This document shows positions 1,990 to 16,806 of a DNA stretch of 28,112 bases, in pieces. Origin of the DNA: a virus. Both the position numbers and the translations under genes were made by a program. The notes beneath the pieces are model-generated. The model ran no database searches. It had not been told where the DNA came from and worked only from the letters and a program-made list of their open reading frames with translations. The first letter of the stretch is position 1; each line of letters starts with the position of its first letter. The stretch is taken from IMG/VR virus record IMGVR_UViG_3300006919_000316, positions 1 to 28,112 of that record; one strand, written 5' to 3'.

Positions 1990-2018
1990 TTGACATGAGG
2001 TCCAAATTTTGATATAAT
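1990..2018 (+). promoter_or_regulatory. Sigma70-type promoter P3
   Basis: TTGACA 1990-1995, 17-bp spacer, TATAAT 2013-2018, with the shared AGTTCTTGACA box and TTTTGA before the -10. Predicted start near 2025, inside the 5' arm of a terminator hairpin. Confidence 0.9.
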
Positions 2019-2021
2019 TTG

Positions 2022-2057
2022 AGAGTGGATTGGGGGTTCCTGGTCCACTCTTTTTTT
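2022..2057 (+). terminator. Terminator directly downstream of P3
   Basis: AGAGTGGA (2022-2029) pairs perfectly with TCCACTCT (2044-2051); loop of 14, then a run of T to 2057. Because P3 should start near 2025, new transcripts lack the first bases of the stem while read-through transcripts have all 8 bp. It may insulate upstream transcription or attenuate P3. Confidence 0.75.
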
Positions 2058-2270
2058 GTAGTTAAGGGCAGAAGAGCGAACATTTTGGGCTGTACCAGCA
2101 GCAAGCGAAGCTCGAAGGAGGTGATCCAATATCTACTCCAAGAACTTAGCAGACGGTCATTCGACCACCTCTTTGTTCTTAATTTCCGGACCTGCTCCTG
2201 GACCCTAAACGAAGTTAGTTATTTACCCTCCGAGGGGGCACTCTCGCCCCCTCACTTCATTGGAGATAAT
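2058..2270 (+). other. Structured leader or RNA region without a convincing gene
   Basis: About 210 bases between the P3 terminator and the zinc-ribbon gene. Readable stems: 2140-2145 with 2175-2180 enclosing 2155-2158 with 2163-2166 (ATTC loop); GAGGGGGC 2232-2239 with GCCCCCTC 2246-2253; and an alternative pairing of 2115-2123 with 2166-2174. A frame runs open from 2019 through the downstream gene, but it starts inside the promoter and has no protein-like character before 2271, so it is treated as chance. Untranslated leader or small RNA is the best description. Confidence 0.5.
2115..2129 (+). promoter_or_regulatory. 15-nt perfect complement of the 16S rRNA 3' end
   Basis: AAGGAGGTGATCCAA is the exact reverse complement of the conserved bacterial 16S 3' terminus (TTGGATCACCTCCTT), far longer than a normal Shine-Dalgarno sequence. 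No ATG follows at normal spacing. It can alternatively pair with CACCTCTTT at 2166-2174, nine pairs with one G-U, which would hide it. Confidence 0.6.
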
Positions 2271-2438
2271 ATGTATCGTAATTGCACTAACTGTGGTAGA
2301 GAGTTTCGATTAGTTATTACAGTAGGAAACATACAGCATTGCTCAATGAAGTGTGCTGAAGAGGAGCTAAAGAGAAAACATGAAGAATCCCGTCGCAAAG
2401 TTCAGCCGCAAGTTCAACAAGGCAAAAGTTTACGTTGA
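2271..2438 (+). CDS. Small zinc-ribbon-like protein
   Basis: 55 residues with Cys5-x2-Cys8 and Cys24-x3-Cys28, a treble-clef or zinc-ribbon-like metal site, followed by a highly charged Lys/Glu/Arg helix. Proteins of this shape usually bind nucleic acid or a protein partner. The ATG at 2271 is chosen because GGAG sits five bases upstream and the product begins at the zinc motif; the open frame extending further 5' is not protein-like. A strong G/C hairpin ends 18 bases before the start codon. It overlaps the next small gene by 59 bases. Confidence 0.68.
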   Translation: MYRNCTNCGREFRLVITVGNIQHCSMKCAEEELKRKHEESRRKVQPQVQQGKSLR

Positions 2439-2490
2439 CCGTAAAAAGGCAATGAAGCGCGGCAAGCTAAAGTATAAAAATTATGAATAG
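2380..2490 (+). CDS. 36-residue highly basic phage microprotein
   Basis: Short frame starting inside the zinc-ribbon gene and overlapping the lysozyme start by 8 bases. It begins MKNPVAKFSRKFNKAKV and is Lys/Arg-rich throughout. From memory, small proteins opening Met-(Lys/Arg)-Asn-Pro-Val-Ala-Lys are common in marine podophage genomes, usually beside small genes, with no known function. GAGGAG lies 13 bases upstream of the ATG. A nucleic-acid-binding role would fit the charge but is inference. It is too short for most gene-length cut-offs and easily missed. Confidence 0.65.
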   Translation: MKNPVAKFSRKFNKAKVYVDRKKAMKRGKLKYKNYE

Positions 2491-2926
2491 AGAAGCAGTT
2501 TTTGAGCAACTCAAGGTAGACGAAGGAGTCAAGTATGAAGTATATCTCGATCACTTGGACCTCCCTACGTTCGGGGTGGGCCATCTTATCACTGACGCTG
2601 ACCCAGAGTTTGAAGCACCTGTGGGCACGCCGGTTTCTGAAGAAAGAGTCTGGCAAGCCTTCGAGCACGACCTTGACACCGCAATTGGAGAATGTCATCG
2701 ACTATACGGATCTGATTTTGAAGCGTTCCCAGCCGAAGTCCAAGAGGTCGTGGTTAATATGATGTTCAATATGGGACGTCCTCGCCTCTCCGGCTTTAAG
2801 AAGTTCAATGCTGCTCTAGAAGCAGGTGACTGGAAAGAAGCCGCAGTAGAAGGTAGAGACTCTCGCTGGTATCGACAAGTAACTAATCGAGCCGAGCGCT
2901 TGATGGTGAGATTGGAAGCTGTATAA
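2483..2926 (+). CDS. Endolysin, T4 lysozyme-like (GH24)
   Basis: 147-residue muramidase that cleaves the beta-1,4 link between N-acetylmuramic acid and N-acetylglucosamine in peptidoglycan. The catalytic triad of the T4 lysozyme family is present at the right spacing: Glu14 in VDEG, Asp23 and Thr29 in the LPTFGVGH segment (T4: Glu11, Asp20, Thr26). The C-terminal helical half carries the usual NMMFNMG and RWYRQVTNRAERL segments. It is slightly shorter than T4 lysozyme (164). No signal or SAR sequence is present, so release should need a holin. It overlaps the i-spanin start by one base and leads the lysis cassette. Confidence 0.93.
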   Translation: MNREAVFEQLKVDEGVKYEVYLDHLDLPTFGVGHLITDADPEFEAPVGTPVSEERVWQAFEHDLDTAIGECHRLYGSDFEAFPAEVQEVVVNMMFNMGRPRLSGFKKFNAALEAGDWKEAAVEGRDSRWYRQVTNRAERLMVRLEAV

Positions 2927-14875: not shown

Positions 14876-15445
14876 TTGAAACTGATTAGTAACTATTATA
14901 TTAAGCAACTAGAAACTTTGCATGATACTCGAAAAAATTTTGGTATCTTTGGAGGTAGAACTACTCTAAAAGATATTCAGCCTTGGATTGATAAGTATCA
15001 GCCCAAGACTTTTATAGATTATGGTTGTGGAAAAGGAGTGCTAGTTAAGCTTCTGCAAGAACAGTACGGACATTGTATTGGATATGATCCTGGGTATGCT
15101 GAATTTAGAGAGAAGCCTTTAGAGCCTGCGGAAATGCTAGTATGCACAGATGTTCTAGAGCATATTGAGCCAGAGTATCTAGACAATGTTTTGAAACATA
15201 TTGATAGTCTGTTTACTAAAGTTGCTTACCTATATATTGCTACTTCAGCCGCTGCTAAGCTTTTACCGGACGGTAGAAATGCTCATTTAATTGTCGAAGA
15301 AGACACTTGGTGGCGACCTAAACTACTAAAACATATCAAAGCAAAAATTATAGATCAAAAATATATTTTTAGTCAATGGCTATCTCAAAAAGAACAAGTG
15401 TATAAACCTGCTAATAAATACGTTGTGGTATTGGAAAAACAGTGA
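14876..15445 (+). CDS. Class I SAM-dependent methyltransferase
   Basis: 189 residues from TTG 14876, directly after the upstream stop. TFIDYGCGKGVLVKLL (residues about 45-60) is SAM-binding motif I; IGYDPGYAEF carries the acidic end of strand 2; LVCTDVLEHIEPEYL (about 88-102) is the post-I region; DGRNAHLIVEEDTWW near 139-153 is shared with the methyltransferase at 23298, so the two are paralogs. The general Asp-Val-Leu-Glu-His signature is common in small-molecule and glycan methyltransferases; the target is unknown. GTGA overlap with the carbamoyltransferase. Confidence 0.82.
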   Translation: MKLISNYYIKQLETLHDTRKNFGIFGGRTTLKDIQPWIDKYQPKTFIDYGCGKGVLVKLLQEQYGHCIGYDPGYAEFREKPLEPAEMLVCTDVLEHIEPEYLDNVLKHIDSLFTKVAYLYIATSAAAKLLPDGRNAHLIVEEDTWWRPKLLKHIKAKIIDQKYIFSQWLSQKEQVYKPANKYVVVLEKQ

Positions 15446-16806
15446 AAGTATTAGGAATTAGTGAAGGGTTTCATGATGCAGCAATCGCAGTAGTAGACTC
15501 GGACACTGGTACAATAAACTTTGCTACACATACTGAACGGTATACTCGAATTAAAAATGATCCGAGTATTCCGGATAAATTACTTCGTAGCACTCCTCAT
15601 GACTTTAGAGTATACTATGAAGATATTTCATTAAAGAATCAAAGGAGAATGATACATGGGCAAGGCCCCGTATATTCAGCTAATGCAGAACTTGCAGATG
15701 ACTTCGTATCGCACCACGAAGCTCATGCAGCAGCCGCTTACTATACCTCTCCTTTCGATTATACTGGATGCGTTATCGCAGTAATTGATGCAATAGGCGA
15801 GTGGGCAACTGCTAGTATTTGGAAACCAAGCCCCAGCGGGTTAATATTGGTTGAGGAGAAATTTTACCCTTTCTCTTTGGGATTATTTTACAGTGCGATC
15901 ACCAAACGAATCGGACTACGACCTAACGAAGATGAGTACATTACGATGGGGATGGCTGCTTTTGGGAATCCCTGCATTGACATGGGGGATTGTTTTAGCC
16001 GCAATCTTCATCGAGGTTTTTCGCTAAACGACTTTAAAGGGCATCGACCCGAGGATATTGCAGCAAGTGCTCAAGCTGCAATTGAAGAAAAAATTCTGGA
16101 ATTTATTACGCCCTGGAAACCTATGGGACGAAACCTTTGTTATGGGGGCGGAGTTGCACTCAATTGTGTAGCTAACTCTAAACTTAGAGCGCATTTTGAT
16201 AATGTTTGGATTATGCCAAGTCCCGGTGATGCTGGAAGCTCTCTCGGAGCTGCTCTTGGGTACCTTAAACAGAAAGTTCCTTTTCAAGACACTTATTTGG
16301 GGTATGACATTGACAGACCGATTAATCCTAGAGAAGTTGCTCAGTACCTTGCCAAAAAAGGAGTGGCCGGAGTCGCGCATGGTCAAGCTGAGTTTGGTCC
16401 TCGCGCACTTGGCAATCGCAGTTTGTTGGGCGATCCTCGTATATCAGATATTAAACGTAAGTTAAACAATGTAAAACGACGCCAAAAGTTTCGTCCTTTT
16501 GCTCCTGCTATTCTTAGTGAGTTTGCAAACGAGTATTTTGAAGGCCCTATGAATGAATATATGCAATTCGTAGCCGAAGCAAAACATAATTATGAAGGAG
16601 TTACTCATGTGGACGGAACTGCGCGAGTGCAGTTAGTACCGCAACATAGTCGCTCAGTATTTCGACAAATTCTAGAAGAATTTTATGAAATCACAGGAGT
16701 GCCCATGCTTCTGAACACCTCTTTGAATATCAAAGGGCAACCAATGGTAAACAATGAGCAAGATGCTCTAGACTTTGAAAAGAAGTATAAGGTAAAAGTG
16801 TTTTGA
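15442..16806 (+). CDS. Carbamoyltransferase (NodU/CmcH/TobZ family)
   Basis: 454 residues from GTG 15442. The N-terminal Kae1-like half has the GFHDAAIAVVD opening, the iron-site SHHEAH cluster (His91, His92, His95), VIAVIDAIGE and GGGVALNCVANSKL (235-248). The C-terminal YrdC-like half has EFGPRALGNRSLLGDPR (317-333), KRRQKFRPFAPAIL, VDGTARVQ and the terminal LLNTSLNIKGQPMV. All main blocks are present, though it is shorter than TobZ-type enzymes (about 570), as usual in phages. It makes carbamoyl-adenylate from carbamoyl phosphate and ATP and transfers it to a hydroxyl; phage relatives modify hydroxymethylated bases. It overlaps the SGNH-like gene by four bases. Confidence 0.93.
   Translation: MKVLGISEGFHDAAIAVVDSDTGTINFATHTERYTRIKNDPSIPDKLLRSTPHDFRVYYEDISLKNQRRMIHGQGPVYSANAELADDFVSHHEAHAAAAYYTSPFDYTGCVIAVIDAIGEWATASIWKPSPSGLILVEEKFYPFSLGLFYSAITKRIGLRPNEDEYITMGMAAFGNPCIDMGDCFSRNLHRGFSLNDFKGHRPEDIAASAQAAIEEKILEFITPWKPMGRNLCYGGGVALNCVANSKLRAHFDNVWIMPSPGDAGSSLGAALGYLKQKVPFQDTYLGYDIDRPINPREVAQYLAKKGVAGVAHGQAEFGPRALGNRSLLGDPRISDIKRKLNNVKRRQKFRPFAPAILSEFANEYFEGPMNEYMQFVAEAKHNYEGVTHVDGTARVQLVPQHSRSVFRQILEEFYEITGVPMLLNTSLNIKGQPMVNNEQDALDFEKKYKVKVF

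Follow-up and report, generated by a model that had tools for sequence, protein, structure and literature searches.

The stretch of DNA that we analyzed (hereafter the window) is an IMG/VR viral record of 28,112 bases. The element described here lies on its plus strand, in a leader that precedes an operon in which a zinc-ribbon-like gene is followed by genes for an endolysin and for spanins (Table 1). The transcript of this leader is expected to start near position 2024, and the leader folds more stably than shuffled versions of itself (z about -3). The hairpin and T run at 2021-2058 begin approximately at the expected transcription start of the promoter at 1990, and might attenuate transcription into the leader or give rise to no more than a very short RNA. 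The plus strand of the window carries seven sigma-70 promoters that come close to perfect (11-12 of 12 consensus positions, spacer of 17), at positions 330, 676, 1990, 10401, 11578, 17696 and 23862. Relatives have many similar promoters, which typically lie 20-30 nt 5' of a start codon, whereas the one at 1990 has a 250-nt leader instead. The promoter at 676 shares sequence with a terminator-like inverted repeat at 676-727 (CCCCAG...CTGGGG, then seven T), whose 5' arm falls inside the promoter spacer; the repeat may therefore terminate upstream transcripts and not those initiated at this promoter. Positions 1-330, at the end of the contig, contain several hairpin-like repeats and no annotated gene or Rfam match. 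Other genes in the window encode a Nol-like carbamoyltransferase (15442-16806), a 2OG-Fe(II) oxygenase (765-1262) and a tRNA-Arg (TCT; 1263-1338).

Table 1. Features of the leader and of the first genes downstream of it; positions are those of the window.
Feature	Position	Strand	Basis
Sigma-70 promoter, TTGACA-17-TATAAT, with TG ahead of the second hexamer	1990-2018	+	12/12 consensus; other perfect copies in the window
Terminator-like hairpin (2021-2052) and T run, immediately 3' of the promoter	2021-2058	+	Sequence, folds
Complement of the 16S rRNA 3' tail (putative 30S docking strand)	2115-2128	+	Sequence match, predicted duplex
Family core, GGAGGTGATCC-AA-TATCT	2117-2134	+	Core common to many unrelated phages; model R1, 28.0 bits at 2114-2157
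Predicted weak local hairpin, GGAG 2117-2120/CTCC 2136-2139 and GAT 2123-2125/ATC 2131-2133	2117-2139	+	Fold prediction only
Predicted 3' hairpin, AAGAAC 2140-2145/GTTCTT 2175-2180, in place of the pseudoknot stem of the family	2140-2180	+	Fold prediction
Predicted G+C-rich hairpin, GAGGGGGC/GCCCCCTC, 5' of the SD of the next gene	2232-2253	+	Fold prediction
55-aa zinc-ribbon-like gene, first after the element	2271-2438	+	ORF with its own SD (GGAG 2262-2265); conserved in the sister contig; weak PHROG match only
Endolysin gene (T4-lysozyme type), next in the operon	2483-2926	+	PHROG endolysin/tail lysozyme

An earlier note on this DNA had singled out the sequence AAGGAGGTGATCCAA (2115-2129) as a 15-nt perfect complement of the 16S rRNA 3' end. 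For 14 of these nucleotides (2115-2128) the complement to the widely conserved 16S tail is exact, and the 15th base, A2129, pairs solely where the 16S reads ...UUGGAUCACC. From base composition, exact matches to this tail in the window, counting both strands, are expected 0.0029 times for a 12-mer, 1.7e-4 times for a 14-mer and 5e-5 times for a 15-mer; the next-longest piece of complement on the plus strand is 8 nt. The duplex of 2115-2128 with the 16S tail has a predicted energy of -25.4 kcal/mol, against a predicted cost of 7.5 kcal/mol for opening the site locally. As the note had observed, no ATG stands at the right distance: an ATA is found there, 7 nt past GGAGG, where it opens a frame of 6 codons, and the window has no ATG, GTG or TTG 5-10 nt after GGAGG, where an ordinary ribosome-binding site would have the start codon of a real gene. 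The next gene starts 142 nt beyond the 15-mer, leaving an SD-like sequence in an untranslated region. The note had further suggested that a facing CACCTCTTT could hide the site. This sequence is present at 2166-2174, yet it is not the predicted partner of the 15-mer; a helix between the two would cost 7.7 kcal/mol relative to the best fold and has a pair probability of about 6e-5, which argues against concealment. A switch operated through CACCTC also finds no support, as the predicted partner of GGAG is the nearby CTCC at 2136-2139 and the 3' partners of other family members differ.

The leader is spanned by an open frame of 139 codons (TTG 2019 to 2438) that is in phase with the 55-aa gene (ATG 2271), and the note had allowed for the 15-mer being simply coding sequence of this frame or drifting in close relatives. 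In a sister contig (IMGVR_UViG_3300040751_003118) the leader has two differences in 1960-2270, neither of them in the element; the core is identical and the 15-mer has not drifted. Because both differences change an amino acid of the 139-codon frame, the leader part of this frame has no sign of coding, and the purely coding explanation fails. We also rejected an N-terminal extension of the zinc-ribbon protein, which has its own SD and ATG and for which both leader differences would change an amino acid. When the zinc-ribbon protein was used as a search bait, the sister contig was the sole match, and a similarity search of a phage collection with the leader DNA gave no match.

An 18-nt block, GGAGGTGATCCAATATCT, of which the 15-mer makes up the 5' half, is the defining feature of an RNA family of many unrelated phages. 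Scanning viral contigs with the bare 16-mer GAAGGAGGTGATCCAA returned mostly coding matches (EGGDP), together with two non-coding leaders in which the sequence continued with TATCTC. A scan with GGAGGTGATCCAATATC recovered 19 stretches, mainly non-coding and many of them immediately 3' of a stop codon, and GGAGGTGATCCNNTATCTC recovered 91, in comparison to about 6 expected by chance if the collection holds ~55 Gb, a size that is our own estimate. Members share a layout of a 16S-tail complement, NN, UAUCUC and then a hairpin, usually an H-type pseudoknot with a UUA linker; the complement is often split, as GAAAGG-(1-4 nt)-GGUGAUCC, and the GTG within the core is invariant. Named carriers are about 120 PaP1-type Pseudomonas phages, in which the PaP1 copy lies between tRNA genes, the jumbo phage PaBG, the roseophage EE36phi1, Streptococcus phages Javan240/242/278 and Staphylococcus phage phi879. 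The window copy has the 16S-complement core, the NN and the UAUCU. It lies at a non-coding boundary upstream of late genes and is the only such site in a pattern search of the record, which is possibly a fragment. In five further sequences (L200, L211, L218, L219 and L233) the element is followed by an additional hairpin (GCCCTA...GGGC), and may in these cases represent the 5' domain of a more extended RNA.

The family has neither a conserved start codon nor a shared peptide: frames vary in length and sequence between phages, and the two N positions of the core alter amino acids freely. A gene start lost by a change of ATG to ATA, or a short peptide, was rejected for lack of a conserved peptide. 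The UAUCU resembles that of prfB, as in programmed frameshifting. We considered a programmed frameshift or stop readthrough on the hint of the UAUCU and of the order of stop, SD and pseudoknot, and rejected it as well, as frames past the stop close fast and differ. Numerous matches of a 17-base pattern in host genomes are not the element; they look like recurring protein-coding sequence in an EEVIQYL frame, which we take to be dnaE2.

In Rfam 15, searched with the window and the carriers, no family reached its gathering score over the element. We read the weak matches as chance (L20_leader at 1946-2062, E 0.023 and far below its cut-off; anti-hemB in EE36phi1; CC2171 in L186). In the openly accessible journal papers searched, we found no description of the element and no occurrence of GGTGATCCAATATCT; GGAGGUGAUCC together with the word phage led there to a 16S-processing paper only. 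The element is thus apparently an undescribed RNA family.

We also collected 80 loci solely by their shared endolysin and scanned them with a relaxed motif, which was present in nine distinct sequences, the sister contig and eight marine T4-like contigs; nine permuted control patterns had zero matches in the same 80 loci. In the eight marine contigs the motif follows a stop codon and is itself followed by a stable hairpin, with a small gene and the endolysin gene downstream and, where the operon was read (L004, L034), a PhoH-like gene between them (the labels T4-like and PhoH-like were read from the proteins, without comparison to a family library). The variant in these contigs (L004, L032, L034, L039, L059, L060, L066 and L073) reads [G/A]AGG..GGTGATC..TATCT and precedes a G+C hairpin, in some cases with T runs; it sits between a gene of 55-60 aa and a gene for an MP-Y-KN protein, with the PhoH-like gene and the endolysin gene further on. 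The window copy keeps both the family core and the operon position of these relatives, upstream of endolysin.

A stem begins right after TATCT in the family, and its paired arms differ between elements (CCC/GGG, CGC/GCG, CGT/ACG, CGG/CCG, CCG/CGG, CCT/AGG), often with TTA next; the loop pairs with bases past this linker, giving an H-type pseudoknot. In a non-redundant set of 48 non-coding elements, 40 have a stem 1 that pairs with its own partner; over 5000 permutations this count averaged 19.4 and never exceeded 31. Watson-Crick runs of at least 5 between the loop and the 3' side were found in 16 of 40 elements (permuted mean 1.75, maximum 8). As MAFFT misaligned the stems across different loop lengths, covariation was scored in sets with equal loops. 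In 15 sequences with a 7-nt loop, picked for stem 1 and not for the pseudoknot, the pseudoknot score was 0.641, as compared with 0.212 when shuffled and at most 0.17 when slid, and all six pairs were changed on both sides; agreement was weaker in seven sequences whose loop has 6 nt. The window copy departs from this architecture, as its 3' hairpin is longer and begins 5 nt later than that of the family, in a comparison set of two near-identical sequences that offers no covariation; a pseudoknot between AGCAG (2148-2152) and CTGCT (2192-2196) might be able to form. The proposal in the note that the site is more than a Shine-Dalgarno sequence is borne out by the recurrence of the extended non-coding motif in many unrelated phages and by its covarying structure; the TATCT and the 3' hairpin or pseudoknot are a conserved part that the note had missed.

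The pairing to 16S rRNA itself appears to be under conservation. We scanned without fixing GGAG, using GTGATCCNNTATCTCN{8,14}GTTA, and recovered 69 stretches, 51 of them non-redundant and 34 with stem 1. GGAG was the commonest form even when left free, and most other forms have GAAAGG, 1-4 extra nt and GGTGATCC, which amounts to a bulged version of the longer 16S complement AGAAAGGAGGUGAUCC. For the 20 elements without GGAG, the predicted pairing of the 12 free bases with CCUCCUUUCU averaged -7.3 kcal/mol; shuffling these bases gave -5.3 (p 2e-4), and a control taken upstream gave -0.5. The total duplexes of these elements range from -16.6 to -24.3 kcal/mol. Because the free bases outpair both the shuffles and the upstream control, the 5' half is, on this sequence evidence, kept as a 16S complement despite its varying letters. 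As GTGATCC, the 3' half, was a fixed part of the pattern in the main scans, its conservation is less independently supported.

About half of the roughly 47 non-coding elements start between -8 and +5 nt from the stop of the upstream ORF. The genes upstream match holin, minor head and protease families, and those downstream match endolysin, major head, scaffold, terminase and portal families. An intrinsic terminator lies within 180 nt on the 3' side in 11 of 61 cases, compared with 1.6% of random positions, a control that is mostly coding sequence. A search of 28 virus or phage records of 16-277 kb found one copy in each, the sole extras being three one-mismatch matches. With the stricter GTTA pattern, the element was present in six of eight host genomes, once in five of them and twice in the other, Oribacterium sp. 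C9, where the two copies (L290 and L357) are 31 kb apart on one contig and probably belong to two prophages. Judged by sequence, many unrelated phages thus carry an RNA element that is complementary to the 16S tail, just once per genome.

From these analyses, we propose that the element probably holds the small ribosomal subunit in place on phage mRNA without starting a protein; capture of 30S subunits, one of the functions floated in the note, is also the reading that best fits the sequence data. Very likely, the free 16S 3' tail of a 30S subunit would dock on the element by pairing over 11-16 bp, well beyond the length of an ordinary Shine-Dalgarno helix. Pairing of GAUCC would use up the spacer, and structured RNA would start 5-6 nt later; therefore, start-codon accommodation should be blocked. 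We favor, at a probability of about 0.5, a non-productive 30S-docked boundary that acts in cis on late mRNA. The docked 30S and the pseudoknot might together protect this boundary, shielding the mRNA end from nucleases as a start-codon-less stabilizing SD does and separating upstream from downstream translation; in the window, the leader acted on would be that of the zinc-ribbon, endolysin and spanin genes. Docking in cis is consistent with the covarying structure, the retention of 16S pairing in elements without GGAG, the non-coding location at late-gene boundaries, the single copy, the unchanged window copy in the sister contig with the operon position of the marine T4-like relatives, and an opening cost well below the duplex energy. 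Against a cis boundary, a general stabilizer would not be expected to occur just once in a genome, the Pakpunavirus element is in a tRNA array and not beside a late gene, the window promoter is met at once by a terminator-like hairpin, the window 3' hairpin is unlike the family pseudoknot, and conservation of the GTGATCC half has less independent support.

Two of these difficulties speak for a role in trans. A small RNA derived from abundant late transcripts or from the tRNA array could cover the 16S tail of host 30S subunits, biasing or silencing SD-dependent initiation or shielding the tail from nucleases. We consider this unlikely but give it some weight because the element is present in a single copy, irrespective of genome size, and because of the PaP1 location inside a tRNA array; the differing neighboring genes and the terminators that follow some copies (11/61) point the same way. 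On the other hand, many copies have no terminator or promoter nearby, phage late genes use SDs too, and a single mRNA species would face many thousands of ribosomes. Equally doubtful is the more specific idea that a complex of small RNA and 30S, with the element bound in trans to the 16S 3' tail, reprograms or protects host ribosomes in late infection, for example by shielding the anti-SD tail from host nucleases.

Somewhat less probable still is a standby site or translation enhancer, at which a 30S held near the next gene would slide to the start codon and raise late-gene expression. The element does often lie 60-110 nt 5' of major head, scaffold, terminase or endolysin genes, and tisB and timP offer a precedent for pseudoknot-assisted initiation (PMC11228461), but very long pairing would impede sliding, a pseudoknot, hairpin or terminator stands between element and gene, PaP1 has no such gene adjacent, and some gaps reach 250-350 nt. 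We regard a leader peptide as improbable: the well-spaced ATA with its 6-codon frame in the window and the invariant GTG of the core could serve as cryptic starts for a short regulatory peptide, but frames differ by phage, the N positions are free, and it is the structure and not the codons that covaries. Even less credible is a chance match or a translated part of the 139-codon frame, which is uninterrupted, matches the phase of the 55-aa gene and has a parallel in the many coding matches of the bare 16-mer; an extended covarying motif, the same operon position in relatives, the zero matches of nine permuted controls and two nonsynonymous sister differences speak against it. A DNA-level signal that resembles an RNA element, such as a packaging or recombination site, would suit the single copy per genome and the several copies adjoining terminase genes, but we give it the least credence of all, as interleaved pseudoknot covariation, gene-strand orientation and 16S complementarity are properties of RNA.

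The preferred reading, non-productive docking of 30S in cis, has partial counterparts among known systems. In the mRNA of rpsO (S15), a pseudoknot beside the SD traps 30S non-productively. The phage element resembles it in having a pseudoknot adjoining an SD at which 30S would be held non-productive; the rpsO site differs in its dependence on S15, in its overlap with a genuine start codon and in controlling the very gene to which it belongs. Pairing of mRNA and 16S past the CCUCC core has been seen by cryo-EM in Staphylococcus aureus, with bS21 a hindrance in E. coli (PMC13009471), but those extended helices belong to real start sites with a correctly spaced ATG or GTG, which the phage element lacks. 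Pseudoknots also recruit 30S/S1 in tisB and perhaps in timP (PMC11228461), again away from the start codon; these sites act via S1 or single-stranded RNA on one toxin gene, whereas the phage element conserves an extended 16S-tail complement without a dedicated start codon. An SD without a start codon suffices for mRNA stabilization in ompA, ermC, lacZ and the cry STAB-SD (PMC7509114). The STAB-SD is credited to Agaisse and Lereclus 1996 in that review, which also gives an SP82 phage example. Like the phage element, it is an SD-like sequence lacking a start codon, and binding of 30S to it presumably protects the mRNA. The phage element differs in its longer bipartite pairing, its UAUCU, its covarying pseudoknot, its occurrence once per phage genome and its quite different hosts.

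If our reading is right, phages of many hosts would share a structured RNA aimed at the anti-Shine-Dalgarno tail, a site of the bacterial ribosome that is more conserved than any other, and docking of 30S without a translation start would be a general phage strategy. The element would then provide a natural test bed for the effects of 30S occupancy on mRNA ends and on coupling, as well as a compact RNA part, and it can be tested in PaP1-type Pseudomonas phages, Streptococcus Javan-type prophages and the roseophage EE36phi1.
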